A stretch of 43,162 nucleotides of DNA from Nitrospira sp. (GTDB taxonomy: Bacteria; Nitrospirota; Nitrospiria; Nitrospirales; Nitrospiraceae), in assembly GCA_005239475.1 (NCBI GenBank), contig SPAX01000051.1, positions 1 to 43,162 of the forward strand, in the 5' to 3' direction. Both the position numbers and the translations under genes were made by a program. Position 1 is the stretch's first letter. Every line of letters starts with the position of its first letter. Below the pieces are notes generated by a model, which searched no databases, had not been told where the DNA came from, and saw nothing but the letters and a program-made list of their open reading frames with translations. Below, piece after piece: positions 1,010 to 29,176 of the stretch.

Positions 1010-2644
1010 TCACGCGCTTTTGAAGCGGGTCACCTTCGCAAACACAATCGCGGCAAAGGGAAGCGCCAACCCCAGAACTAACTGCGCGATGAGGAGCGAG
1101 CCGAGTTGGCTATAGTCGGCAGGCATTTGAACGACGCCGGAAACCTGGTCACGGACTTCCCGACTGATCACATAGATTTCGTTCATGTACTTAGTACCGA
1201 GTTGGCTCAACGACAAGGCCAGATTCGTAAATGAAGCCATCACGGCAAAGAAGGTGGCTTTCAAGTTCGCGGGCGCGGAGTTGGCAATCCAGGCCAGCAT
1301 CGGAATCATGGAAATCTGACCGAGCGGCGATTCTAATGCCGTATCGATCAGCGCAATGAATCGTGCATCGACAATACCCCCTGTAATTCTTGCCGTCCAT
1401 TCGTGCAAACCGTAGAACATGCTCACGATCGGAAGGGTCAAAATGGTTCCGATCACCGTGAGAAACCCCACGACATAGGCAATCGACCGCTCGGCCATGA
1501 AGCGGCGAAAGACGAACATCCCCGCCAGGGTCAACGTGCTGCCGATCAGCGAGAGGACAGAGAGAAACTGCTGATCGAACTTCAGCTGGTCGATCATCCA
1601 CCACGTCGTCCCTGACCCGGTACCGGGAATAGCGCGGAAGATAAAGACCACGACCGCTGTCCCGACCAGGGTGAAACGCTTGTCAGGCTCCAGTTCTCGT
1701 ACCAGCCGGGCCATCAAAAACAAGACGATTGTCATCGAGCCGACAAAGACAATCTCTTCGCTATAAGAGAAGCCGCCTAATCCGACGGTTAGGATGAACA
1801 GCACGAAGGCGAGACTCCCGCCAAGAATCCACCAATTGGGCCTGGTCGCCTCCACCAGGCTTCCCCGTTCACGTACCATCTCGTTGATCTGCGCCCGCGT
1901 GAACCCCTGCTGTCGAAGCTGCCGCATGTGACGTTGTTGCAGAAACCAGGCAACCCCCACCCCAAGCACCGAGACAAACGGGATCACGAGCGCCACGAGG
2001 TAAACCTGCTTGTAGAGCCAAACGATCTCTGCCTGTGGGAGTCCTTCGACTCCTGAGAAGACATACACGTTGATCATCGCCACCAGAATCCCGCCGCCGA
2101 CGATGGCTACACGACCGAGCGTCTGCATGGTGGTGTGCATGAGCTTGAGTGTCGGCTGGTCGAACGGCTGCCCCCGCTCATCCACCCGTGGCACGGCATC
2201 GACCGTCATCGCATCCGCGACCGCGTCTTGCACGACGTAGCCGATCGGTCCAAGTAATGTACTGATCACATACCAGACTTCCGCGGGCAGGATGGAGGTC
2301 ATCACTTCCCGACTCCCGATCAATGCCGCCATGATCCCAAGACTGGCGGCCAGCAGCCCGGCTCCAAGGCCCACGAGCCAGCCTTTCCAGCGCCACAAGA
2401 GATCGACGAGATGTCCGATCGGCATCTTGAGTGCCCAAGGAATGCCGGCCCAAAATCCCAGCGCCGCAAGAAACGCGGCGGAGAGGCCGAGGTAGTCCTT
2501 GACGAAGAAGGTGCCGACGATCCCGGTAAGACCGGAGATACCGTAGGCCATGTAGACCATCAGGGGCGGCAGATATGATAGCCGCATCTCGCGGCTAAGA
2601 GAGAGAATGTTAAGATCAATCCACTGGGCGAGGCGCGTGAACAT
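1010..2644 (-). CDS. MFS-type multi-span transporter, BT1 (folate/biopterin)-like
   Basis: The 544-residue protein has about a dozen hydrophobic segments across its length and no periplasmic domain, so it is an inner-membrane carrier. The stretch around residues 130-165 (LLGPIGYVVQDAVADAMTVD) resembles the conserved acidic helix of BT1-family folate/biopterin transporters, which also keep DxxADA-type residues there. A charged cytoplasmic loop near residues 235-270 separates the two halves. Its ATG begins two bases after the stop of the upstream ferredoxin/lactamase gene and has no clear Shine-Dalgarno sequence, so translation is probably coupled. Substrate is not known. Another MFS subfamily is possible; the transporter assignment itself is secure. 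Confidence 0.75.
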   Translation of the reverse strand: MFTRLAQWIDLNILSLSREMRLSYLPPLMVYMAYGISGLTGIVGTFFVKDYLGLSAAFLAALGFWAGIPWALKMPIGHLVDLLWRWKGWLVGLGAGLLAASLGIMAALIGSREVMTSILPAEVWYVISTLLGPIGYVVQDAVADAMTVDAVPRVDERGQPFDQPTLKLMHTTMQTLGRVAIVGGGILVAMINVYVFSGVEGLPQAEIVWLYKQVYLVALVIPFVSVLGVGVAWFLQQRHMRQLRQQGFTRAQINEMVRERGSLVEATRPNWWILGGSLAFVLFILTVGLGGFSYSEEIVFVGSMTIVLFLMARLVRELEPDKRFTLVGTAVVVFIFRAIPGTGSGTTWWMIDQLKFDQQFLSVLSLIGSTLTLAGMFVFRRFMAERSIAYVVGFLTVIGTILTLPIVSMFYGLHEWTARITGGIVDARFIALIDTALESPLGQISMIPMLAWIANSAPANLKATFFAVMASFTNLALSLSQLGTKYMNEIYVISREVRDQVSGVVQMPADYSQLGSLLIAQLVLGLALPFAAIVFAKVTRFKSA

Positions 2645-24734: not shown

Positions 24735-25802
24735 TTATTGTGGGGCGCTCATCCGATCCTGATCGCGTGATTCTTCTGCGATCACCGAAATCGTCCTCTT
24801 CTCGCCTCGTCGAAGAAACGTCAAGGCCATCGGGATACCGACCTTTTCCTCGACCAACAAACGGTGCAGATCATCGATGTCCCGAACGGTTTGATCGCCG
24901 TAGCCGATGATCACATCGCCTTCTGCGAGACTCGCTCGCTGCGCTGGGCTTGCCGGTTCAACCGCTACGACGAGAATCCCGCTCTCGGTATCCAGGTCAT
25001 GAAAACGGACGACTCGCCTCGGCAGCTCCACGTTCTGGCCCGAGATCCCGAGGAAGCCGCGACGGACTTTCCCATCCTTGATCAGCCGGCCCGCGATGAA
25101 CTTGGCCGTGTTGATGCCGATGGCGAAGCAGATACCTTGGGCCGATCGGATAATGGCCGTGTTGACGCCGATGACTTCCCCGCGCGAGTTGACGAGCGGC
25201 CCGCCCGAGTTGCCCGGATTCAACGCCGCATCCGTCTGAATGACGTTGTCGATCAACCGGCCGGACGTCGAACGCAATGAACGCCCGAGCGCGCTGATCA
25301 CTCCGGCTGTGACCGTGCATTGGAATCCATAGGGATTACCGACCGCGATGGCCAGTTGTCCCACGCGGATCCTGTGCGAGTCGCCAAGCTCTGTGTGGTT
25401 CTGCAGCGGCGCCTCGACCCGAATCACGGCCAGATCCGTATCGGGATCTTCACCGATCAGGTAGGCGGAGTGCCGACGACCATCAGACAAGGTGATATCG
25501 ATCTGATCCGCGCCATGCACGACGTGGCTATTCGTGAGAGCAAAGCCGTCCGGCGTAAAAATGAAGCCGGATCCGCTGCCCGTAACACCCAAGGGTGTCC
25601 TCGGATCCCCGACCGACCTCCCCGATCGATGACGGACTTCGATGTTCACGACCGCCGGACTGACCGCTCCAGAGGCGGTGATCACCGCCTGCGAATAGGC
25701 ATCCAACAGGTCGTCATCGGTTGCCACCGAATGACGTAGGACGCCGCCGGTGATCATGTGTTCATCGTTCGCAACCAACCGAAGTGTTTGTGTCGTAGCC
25801 AT
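24735..25802 (-). CDS. HtrA/Deg-family serine protease with one PDZ domain, no signal peptide
   Basis: The protein of about 355 residues has a trypsin-like domain with His93 (LTNSHVV), Asp123 (DTDLAVI) and Ser199 (LNPGNSGGPLV). One PDZ domain follows from about residue 260 (RGFLGISGQNVELPR, PAQRASLAEGDVIIGYG). Most Deg proteases are periplasmic. Here the 40 residues before the protease domain show neither signal peptide nor membrane helix, so it may be cytoplasmic. I prefer the ATG at 25802 with GGAAGAG upstream; earlier TTG/ATG starts overlap or abut doxX. It follows doxX by 31 bp. Substrate is unknown; damaged-protein removal under the same stress is inference. Confidence 0.88.
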   Translation of the reverse strand: MATTQTLRLVANDEHMITGGVLRHSVATDDDLLDAYSQAVITASGAVSPAVVNIEVRHRSGRSVGDPRTPLGVTGSGSGFIFTPDGFALTNSHVVHGADQIDITLSDGRRHSAYLIGEDPDTDLAVIRVEAPLQNHTELGDSHRIRVGQLAIAVGNPYGFQCTVTAGVISALGRSLRSTSGRLIDNVIQTDAALNPGNSGGPLVNSRGEVIGVNTAIIRSAQGICFAIGINTAKFIAGRLIKDGKVRRGFLGISGQNVELPRRVVRFHDLDTESGILVVAVEPASPAQRASLAEGDVIIGYGDQTVRDIDDLHRLLVEEKVGIPMALTFLRRGEKRTISVIAEESRDQDRMSAPQ

Positions 25803-26446: not shown

Positions 26447-26645
26447 GTAAGTGACAAACTTCGACTAGGGGTTGCGACACTAGACCGAAGCCCTTATTAT
26501 GATGTGCCGACATCTTTAGTATCGACGAATAACCAAACGCGCTCCACTCCGGAAAAACATGTCTCTCGTACAAAACGAAGTTAATACCAAATGCTTTAAT
26601 CGGAGTGCCAAATTGCCATTTGGCATCCGCTTGAAGGATTTCGAA

Positions 26646-27168
26646 ATGGCAATGCAGGACGTCTACGATTTTTTCTACGACGTGAATCTTGGCCTTATCG
26701 AACGAGGGCTTCAACGACTTGACGATATGCTACGGCCAGCAATCATGTCCGGAGTTTTGTCGGACATGCTTACGGCAAGTCTGGCAAAACATTCCAGGAG
26801 CCTGACCGTCAATCTTTACCACAACGGTCACCCAGACCTCCTTGTGAATGGGATATACCCGGACAACAAGGTTAAGGCGGGGTCGGAAGGTGTAGAAATC
26901 AAGGCAACTCGGAAGGCTGGTGAGTGCCGTAGACACTCACGGCGCACGCGATCAATGGATGTGCGTGTTTGTCTATGACGTGGATAACTTTTCGGAGCCT
27001 GCTAACGATAGAGCGCCCATGACGGTTACAGAGATCTATCTTGGACATGTCACGAAGGACGACTTTAGAAAGAATCAGCGCGGGGAGCTAGGTACCCGTA
27101 CAGCCACGTTGCATAAGAGCGGTATCGAGAAGCTGAGGAAGAGTTGGGTTTACAAGCTCAAAAGATGA
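26646..27168 (+). pseudogene. Type II restriction endonuclease gene, PD-(D/E)xK type, frameshifted
   Basis: The first frame encodes MAMQDVYDFFYDVN through GHPDLLVNGIYP and EGVEIKATRKAG. Asp64, Glu84 and Lys86 make a PD...ExK nuclease site. The reading frame then breaks near 26918-26928. The next frame continues AVDTHGARDQWMCVFVYDVD to a good C-terminus, EKLRKSWVYKLKR, ending at 27168. One extra base explains the break: 523 bp is 174 codons plus one. I chose the ATG at 26646 (AAGGA 8-9 nt upstream). The 3' end overlaps the convergent methyltransferase gene by 19 bp. As it stands the product would lack the last third, so restriction is probably lost, unless the base is an assembly error. Confidence 0.78.
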
Positions 27169-28316
27169 TTACTGCCGTTCTTGAATACGGCTAACCTGGG
27201 CAGGGCCTTTTTCGCCATTTCAAAGTAATGCGGGTCTTTTTCAATCCCGATACTCTCATACCCCACCGATTCAGCCGCAGCAAGCGTCGACCCTGTTCCA
27301 CAGAATGGGTCGAGCACCACTCCCTGCCCAAGCGGAAGGACGCCACGAACTAACGTGCGCATGAACTGTTGGGGCTTTAAGCTTGGATGTGGTGCAAGGG
27401 CCCTTTCGGATTTATGTGTGGGTGCCGACAGAATCACATCTCCGAAGGGTTTCTCCAAAGAGGGTCTTCGAAAGCCTCCCGTTCCCCACTTGCGTAAATT
27501 ATCCTGTGCTCTTCCCTCTAGGGGCTTACGGAAGAGCAGCCAAGGTTCCCACATGGAGCGCGGCATCACGCTGATATCTGGAAATTCTTCGTGAGCCGCT
27601 TTCGGTCTATCTCCCCCTCGCATGGTCATGACAAGGCGAACGATTTCCCCCCGCCTTTCTAGACCAGCTTTCGCAAGTGCCGCTGAGACCACGTAAGAAA
27701 GCAACGGGTTTGTCGCAACGACGACGTTCGCCCCCGGAACCAAAACAGGAATGAGCGCCTTTGCCCATTCGAGAAAGAATAATTCAAGAGCGCGAAGGTC
27801 TTGCGGGGATAGTACCGTGAACCTGGGAAGTGGGGCACGCTGAACTCCGTCAAAAGAAGGGGGGATGCGCCATACGCCTCCCTTGCCATTCCGCAACTTT
27901 TGCTGTTGCTCGGAGGAGTATTCGAACAGTCCGTAAGGAGGATCGGTGACAACAGCATGAACGGTATTGGGTCCCTGCTCTCGCAACCAGTTCAAGCAGT
28001 CGGCTTCAAGCACGAGAGCTTTGCCGAAAGTGAAACTTCGCCAATAATCGAGGCGAGATTCAGCGGTCTTGCTGGCCCGCACTCTCGTGGTCATTTTTAA
28101 TCCGTAATGACCACGGGCGGTGCGCATGAATGTCGATGGTGTGTTCAGTCGTAGGTAAGATCGTACACTGGATCGCGCCGCGTGGCCGATGAGGTCGGCC
28201 ACGTGTTGCTCGATCGTGCGGAGAGGAGCACCGGCAGGCATGGCCGTAAGAACGGAAAGGATCGCGTCCCTCACTTCACCGGGACGGCGCTTAGTTTGAA
28301 CCGACGGTTTGTACAC
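27150..28316 (-). CDS. DNA methyltransferase (N4/N6, beta-class order) with an N-terminal winged-helix-like domain
   Basis: The 388-residue protein has catalytic motif IV TDPPYGLFEYS (residues 124-134) before the SAM-binding motif I, VVLDPFCGTGST (near 338). That order marks beta-class amino-methyltransferases acting on adenine or cytosine-N4. Residues 10-75 look like a winged helix (VRDAILSVLTAMPAGAPLRT, HYGLKM), as in HARE-HTH/restriction-linked proteins. It pairs with the convergent, frameshifted nuclease, so it may now work as an orphan methylase. The GTG at 28316 lacks an RBS but sits at the predicted transcription start, suggesting a leaderless mRNA; ATG 28241 is the next candidate. The recognition site is unknown. 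Confidence 0.88.
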   Translation of the reverse strand: MYKPSVQTKRRPGEVRDAILSVLTAMPAGAPLRTIEQHVADLIGHAARSSVRSYLRLNTPSTFMRTARGHYGLKMTTRVRASKTAESRLDYWRSFTFGKALVLEADCLNWLREQGPNTVHAVVTDPPYGLFEYSSEQQQKLRNGKGGVWRIPPSFDGVQRAPLPRFTVLSPQDLRALELFFLEWAKALIPVLVPGANVVVATNPLLSYVVSAALAKAGLERRGEIVRLVMTMRGGDRPKAAHEEFPDISVMPRSMWEPWLLFRKPLEGRAQDNLRKWGTGGFRRPSLEKPFGDVILSAPTHKSERALAPHPSLKPQQFMRTLVRGVLPLGQGVVLDPFCGTGSTLAAAESVGYESIGIEKDPHYFEMAKKALPRLAVFKNGSNHLLSL

Positions 28317-28322
28317 AAAGAA

Positions 28323-28351
28323 AGAATATGACGTCTAGACGTCATTGTCAA
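28323..28351 (-). promoter_or_regulatory. Methyltransferase promoter with an 18-bp palindrome in the spacer
   Basis: The minus strand has consensus -35 TTGACA (28351-28346), a 17-bp spacer and -10 TATTCT (28328-28323). The perfect palindrome ATGACGTCTAGACGTCAT covers 28328-28345, that is, the spacer plus one -10 base. The GTG start begins 6 nt after the -10 box. Restriction-modification genes are often autoregulated. The methylase's own winged helix is the obvious candidate binder (inference). Confidence 0.7.
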
Positions 28352-28624: not shown

Positions 28625-29101
28625 TCACTTTCTTTCTTTCATCGCCCGTTCCACTTCGCGGCTGGCTTCGCGCGTCTTGATTGATTCACGACGGTCATGC
28701 TGCTTCTTGCCTTTGGCTAACCCGAGTTCGACCTTAGCAAGGCCCCGCTTGGAGAAATAGATGCGGAGCGGGATGAGCGTGAGTCCTTGCTGTTGCGTCT
28801 TACCGAGAAGCTTGTTGATCTCCTTGCGGTGGAGGAGCAGTTTCCGAGTACGGAGCGGCTCATGATTCATGATGTTGCCGTGGCTGTAGGGACTGATGTG
28901 GCAGTGGTGGAGAAAGACCTCGCCGCTCTTCACGCTGGCGTAACTATCTTGCAGGTTCACGCGCCCCTCTCGCAGGGATTTGACCTCCGTACCCTGGAGC
29001 ATGATGCCCGCCTCGACCTTGTCTTCAATGAAATAGTCGTGGTAGGCTTTGCGGTTGGTAGCGACGGATTTTTCGCTCTTATCTTTTTGCTGCTGCACCA
29101 T
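28625..29101 (-). CDS. smpB: SmpB, SsrA (tmRNA)-binding protein
   Basis: The protein of about 158 residues is the tmRNA partner that rescues stalled ribosomes. Family features are [64 protein letters not shown] and the basic tail [18 protein letters not shown]. The last is the segment that enters the decoding centre. I use the ATG at 29101; an earlier start adds 12 residues not typical of the family. No ssrA gene was seen in the window. The gene is divergent from dciA and its stop abuts the 100-bp palindrome. Confidence 0.96.
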
Positions 29102-29133
29102 TGGGCCGCCTCGCCCCGGGAGTCTCAACGTCG

Positions 29134-29176
29134 TCAAGTCCTAAAGTCTTCAGGTCTTCAGAGACCTTTGACTTGA
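29134..29176. repeat. Inverted repeat between smpB and dciA
   Basis: TCAAGTC (29134-29140) pairs with GACTTGA (29170-29176), and an inner AGGTCT-TCAG-AGACCT hairpin sits near the centre. It lies between the two divergent gene starts. Its role is unknown; it could be an operator or a repeat remnant. Confidence 0.45.

Follow-up and report, generated by a model that had tools for sequence, protein, structure and literature searches.

A restriction-modification (R-M) system is lethal to a new host if cutting begins before the DNA is methylated, and the timing of methylase synthesis is therefore a central question. M.EcoRII, M.SsoII, M.Ecl18kI, M.ScrFI and M.MspI are 5-methylcytosine enzymes. In methylases of the M.EcoRII, M.SsoII and M.Ecl18kI type the N-terminal domain binds an operator over the promoter of the enzyme and represses its own gene, in EcoRII and Ecl18kI via a helix-turn-helix (PMC3874152, PMC12707154). 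Repression that hinges on whether the substrate sites of the enzyme are methylated has a precedent in M.EcoRII (PMC12707154). Leaderless mRNAs are common among R-M regulator genes, those of C-protein systems included (PMC4824078, PMC5333194). The methylase gene considered here is from Nitrospira sp. and is located in a stretch of 43,162 nucleotides (contig SPAX01000051.1), the whole of which is called the window.

The gene is on the minus strand (27,150..28,316) and encodes a DNA amino-methyltransferase of 388 aa (PF01555, E 5e-17; PADLOC MTase_II PDLC03215, E 5e-111). DPPY ahead of FxGxG marks the beta class, and PF01555 comprises the N6/N4 family. Structural neighbours are CcrM, TTHA0409, M.PvuII and M.RsrI. 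At the N-terminus a winged-helix domain is predicted (residues 12-74; 28,095..28,283, minus strand), which is putatively operator-binding. In the AlphaFold model residues 12-73 form three helices (12-25, 32-43, 47-58) followed by two strands with a pLDDT of about 80, which bears out an earlier suspicion of a winged-helix-like N-terminal region. Winged-helix repressors such as TtgV (Z 9.4) and MecI (Z 8.1) are among the fold matches, as are numerous further winged helices; other nearest solved folds are Fur, the delta subunit of RNA polymerase and the winged helices of SAMD1 and KAT6A. The modelled domain thus matches as a generic winged helix. No Pfam model scored above its cut-off. DUF7669 and HARE-HTH (PF05066) gave weak matches to some members of the family, the latter with E 0.0035 in one of 17 members, i.e., below the curated cut-off, and the window protein had no PF05066 match. 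A PDB sequence search with the domain profile returned no credible natural relative, the best match being a designed protein.

The promoter region is compact. The -35 hexamer TTGACA (28,346..28,351) and the -10 hexamer TATTCT (28,323..28,328), both consensus matches as are the hexamers of all other loci, are separated by 17 nt. This spacer is filled by the perfect 18-bp palindrome ATGACGTCTAGACGTCAT (28,328..28,345), the last base of which is the first T of the -10 hexamer. The GTG start codon (28,314..28,316) follows 6 nt past the -10, is predicted to be leaderless, and is preceded by CATATTCTTTCTTT, in which no Shine-Dalgarno-like sequence is evident. The original prediction had described precisely this arrangement, i.e., hexamers, spacing, palindrome, the position of the GTG and the absent ribosome-binding site, and it is confirmed on the minus strand (28,351-28,323 for the promoter, 28,316-28,314 for the GTG). 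The palindrome is assigned as an operator by its sequence and by the conservation of its core GACGTCNNGACGTC (28,330-28,343), which is common to the relatives. The exact 18-mer occurs a single time in the 3.56-Mb genome. Rarity as such is weak evidence: two perfect palindromes of 18 bp or more are seen in the window against 0.15 expected, and the second one, AGGCGGTGATCACCGCCT at 25,673-25,690, is within a gene for a trypsin-like protease. Chance is excluded because the operator is conserved among relatives, not because palindromes are rare.

This conservation is profound. The first 20 homologous loci with the domain were gathered by protein similarity alone, and all 20 have GACGTCNNGACGTC upstream, one copy each. 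The set was then expanded by plasmid relatives (Gordonia, Microvirga, small plasmids of Klebsiella/Raoultella/Citrobacter, Pseudomonas and Rhizobium), by three further loci from viral contigs, and, beyond the locus of the window, by twelve from 198 Nitrospirota genomes searched with a profile. The exact core precedes 44 of these 45 winged-helix relatives, plasmids and viral contigs included. In the sole exception (L083) the domain is kept, one operator half is intact in the same place and the other half is degenerate. Operator loci are present in nine phyla, i.e., Nitrospirota, Pseudomonadota, Verrucomicrobiota, Kiritimatiellota, Acidobacteriota, Hydrogenedentota, Tectimicrobiota, Chloroflexota and Actinomycetota. 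From the 44 operator-bearing loci we selected 25 non-redundant ones that are less than 80% identical in the catalytic domain. In their alignment the 12 core bases are invariant, and none of the other columns (94 in total) exceeds 1 bit. The 2-nt centre is mostly YN and the flanks are A/T-rich. Chance predicts about 0.0005 tandem sites within 100 bp upstream of these 25 loci, versus 25 seen, the loci having been chosen from operator-bearing ones. Among the Nitrospirota the tandem site is present in 13/13 genomes with the domain versus 19/185 without it, the latter level being about that of a reversed-pattern control. One extra site (G185) was dismissed as it falls within what looks like an open coding frame, where no remnant of the system was seen; the second site of another genome (G155) belongs to a decayed copy of the R-M system. 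In the Klebsiella plasmid locus L030 (1378-1413) one more GACGTC, unpaired, lies 22 bp ahead of the tandem operator, as it does in the L031/L039 variant. The E. coli genome collection contained nothing that closely matches the Klebsiella version.

A different picture emerges when relatives of the methylase without the winged helix are inspected. None of 18 such loci (L021-L023, L036, L037, L046-L058) has a tandem site upstream, not even L021, which has neither domain nor site and is still 72% identical over its best segment; a different small gene is in front of its methylase. In the genomes of L021 and L023 the domain was not found anywhere. The search for the palindrome before homologous methylase genes, which the original prediction had proposed as a check, thus recovered the core in 44 of 45 loci where the domain is present and in none where it is absent. 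Further to this point, three actinobacterial plasmids, those of Gordonia (L033), Iamia (L034) and M. avium (L035), encode the domain in a gene of its own (71-74 aa), the end of which overlaps or abuts the methylase start. There it is the separate winged-helix gene that has the operator in front of it; L033 and L034 repeat the 17-nt spacing, and their start codons follow 6-7 nt past the -10. In a tree of the catalytic domains the domain-bearing loci form approximately one group with a single nested joint loss (L021); the split loci are near the base of this group at a position that the tree does not resolve, and their basal placement is compatible with a standalone regulator which was later fused to the methylase. 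The correlation of domain and operator is strong in counts and amounts to about two independent events, too few changes for significance in a phylogenetically independent test; the evidence for selection is the base-by-base conservation. The Microvirga plasmid locus L029 has a second, standalone winged helix (1593-1808, minus strand), divergent from the methylase, with one operator in the shared intergenic region. When searched for on other enzymes, the domain was seen only with the present methylase family and with XamI-type operons; weak Pseudomonadota matches (L084, L085) were not accepted as members.

The operator is inside the -35/-10 spacer in 31 of 44 loci (30 by script and L005 by hand). 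In nearly all of these the start codon is 6-8 nt past the -10 (the script assigned 26, and L005, L065 and L071 join them if the GTG closest to the -10 is used; L008 is an exception), an arrangement which recurs across phyla. In about 11 loci the operator is positioned over the -35 (TTGACGTC) with a leader of 20-50 nt, and in L028 at the predicted transcription start; L044 and L045 show no clear -10. That the operator varies in position yet stays over the core promoter is more in keeping with steric repression than with activation. In the genome of the window and in most relatives the transcript is predicted to begin at or beside the start codon, so that operator, promoter and translation start would be packed into about 40 bp.

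The neighbouring restriction endonuclease-like gene (26,559..27,168, plus strand) is convergent with the methylase gene. It has a frameshift near 26,917 and reads as 26,559-26,978 plus 26,920-27,168. In close Nitrospira relatives it is intact, and in most relatives a PD-(D/E)XK-like gene of roughly 200 residues is convergent with the methylase. The system in the window may have been reduced to its methylase, or the frameshift may stem from an assembly error. Pfam and NCBIfam gave no match to the gene, and the PADLOC match was weak. Neither in the window nor in the relatives is a tandem operator present at the endonuclease gene or its 5' end, and direct control therefore appears to be confined to the methylase. 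In several Nitrospira genomes the cassette adjoins smpB (28,625-29,137 in the window; L001-L003), and in L129 a decayed copy beside smpB consists of the operator and an endonuclease fragment, the methylase being gone. The smpB neighbourhood is likely an insertion hot spot for the cassette. A different family of endonuclease-like genes, co-oriented with the methylase, accompanies the same methylase family in L019 (2213-2836), L020 (1392-1988) and L023 (1323 onward).

With considerable confidence we propose that the palindrome is the methylase operator and that the winged helix binds its core and represses its own, mostly leaderless gene. The self-repression by a leaderless methylase which was originally suggested is thus supported by the comparison with relatives; from sequence comparisons we infer binding, dimerisation, repression rather than activation, and the 5' end of a leaderless mRNA. 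The winged helix would bind GACGTCNNGACGTC, probably as a dimer that occupies both halves; the two-half operator form GACGTCTAGACGTC is the candidate site of the N-terminal domain. Once bound, inside or over the core promoter, it would block RNA polymerase. Upon entry into a new cell or upon dilution the methylase would be made at a high rate, and with enough methylase present the gene would be shut down.

Does the operator also contain the target of the enzyme? The same winged-helix family is present as a standalone gene before XamI-type operons, which comprise an Eco57I/N6_Mtase-like methylase and RE_XamI. The hosts are M. kansasii, Rhodococcus pNC500, and Gordonia and Micrococcus plasmids (winged helix at L040 2450-2701, L041 2450-2707, L042 2430-2704 and L059 2435-2704). 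The XamI target is GTCGAC. All four XamI-type loci with the winged helix have this hexamer no more than 50 bp from the start of the regulator gene, two of them as a pair, and GACGTC pairs are absent from these loci. In Massilia, a XamI-type system whose small regulator is unrelated (L096, about 1640-1680) has GTCGACNNGTCGAC / TTGACAGTATGTCGACAAGTCGACATACTG / GTCGACAAGTCGAC between -35 and -10, a layout that resembles that of GACGTCNNGACGTC. Further XamI systems, whose regulators are of the Xre type or of other kinds, showed no comparable pair; L093, L094, L095 and L097 are XamI-type systems with HigA-like or other small regulators at the same position. The regulator of XamI-type R-M systems seems to have been swapped repeatedly. 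By analogy this suggests GACGTC as a candidate target of the present methylase and a regulator that may read methylation. N6-methyladenine can be sensed by winged helices (PMC11037411). The full proposal, i.e., an operator in which two target sites of the R-M system itself (GACGTC in the present family, GTCGAC in the XamI-type systems that share the regulator family) are paired at a constant distance and have their methylation state read by the winged helix, is tentative and on balance we regard it as rather unlikely. The avoidance of GACGTC in the genome is uninformative on the target (1041 sites versus 961 for the reversed pattern). When the literature was searched for a methylome that would link the methylase with GACGTC, the sole result was a haloarchaeal m5C GACGTC motif, which is assigned to another enzyme.

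Another variant takes the two GACGTC copies as the methylase's own targets, with promoter methylation alone modulating RNA polymerase and the winged helix dispensable. Control by promoter methylation is known for CfrBI, LlaDII and AhdI (PMC12707154), and both the GTCGAC hexamers near the regulator starts and the GTCGACNNGTCGAC of Massilia, which goes with an unrelated regulator, speak for it. Yet close relatives without the winged helix are also without the sites, and methylation alone necessitates neither pairing nor a strict 2-nt spacing; we consider this variant improbable. Even less can be said for the domain as an activator in the manner of a C protein at low concentration. Palindromes close to their own promoters are bound by C proteins, which can act as activators (PMC12707154), but the present operator takes up the spacer, covers part of the -35 or sits at the start and is not upstream of the -35; moreover, spacer-type promoters have good -35 hexamers and the convergent endonuclease gene is not co-transcribed, which makes activation very doubtful. 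That the palindrome acts as a DNA or RNA structure, i.e., a cruciform, terminator or mRNA hairpin, is scarcely credible: a consensus scan does list it as terminator-like on the minus strand, but the exact bases are conserved rather than the pairing, the centre varies and is often non-palindromic (TG, CA, CC, CT, TC), and the element is upstream of the start of the predicted transcript.

Repression by the winged helix remains the preferred reading, and it describes a compact control module that crosses phyla, with a precisely defined operator and a regulator of 70 aa, fused or alone; for these reasons the module is easy to test. The operator may predict the target of the present methylase family. 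Should the winged helix tell a methylated operator from one that is not, it would act as a natural sensor of methylation which drives transcription. The gene would then be controlled by how protected the cell is, rather than by the amount of enzyme alone, and the domain would represent a swappable family of target-reading regulators, fused or standalone, across R-M types.

How does this compare with known systems? Autorepression has its precedent in m5C methylases such as EcoRII and Ecl18kI (PMC3874152, PMC12707154), and the principle is equally established for SsoII. As in M.EcoRII, M.SsoII, M.Ecl18kI, M.ScrFI and M.MspI, a DNA-binding domain, here a predicted one, is at the methylase N-terminus; as in the EcoRII/SsoII/Ecl18kI type, the operator, here deduced from conservation, overlaps the methylase promoter. 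In contrast to that type the present enzyme has no 5-methylcytosine catalytic domain and is a beta-class amino-methyltransferase, its winged helix is below Pfam cut-offs, the endonuclease gene is convergent, the start is predicted to be leaderless, and the domain also occurs as a separate gene. With C proteins it shares a small DNA-binding R-M regulator at its own promoter. C proteins, however, activate and repress a C-R operon, whereas the present system has neither an operator at the endonuclease gene nor cotranscription with it, and its regulator is a winged helix usually fused to the methylase, standing alone beside this methylase mainly in actinobacterial plasmids. The originally predicted departure from usual C-protein control therefore holds, the regulator being fused and no tandem operator being near the endonuclease gene. 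By analogy with the XamI-type loci the methylase promoter may hold its own target sites, as in CfrBI, LlaDII and AhdI, but the occurrence of the present operator follows that of the winged helix and not that of the catalytic domain. HARE-HTH (PF05066) and other proposed readers of DNA modification are similar in fold and sequence pattern; the present domain differs in scoring below the curated cut-off and in its context. What we infer to be new is a beta-class amino-methyltransferase in an autorepression-type layout, with an unclassified winged helix, fused and alone (XamI-type systems use it alone), a compact, presumably leaderless promoter and a deeply conserved operator.
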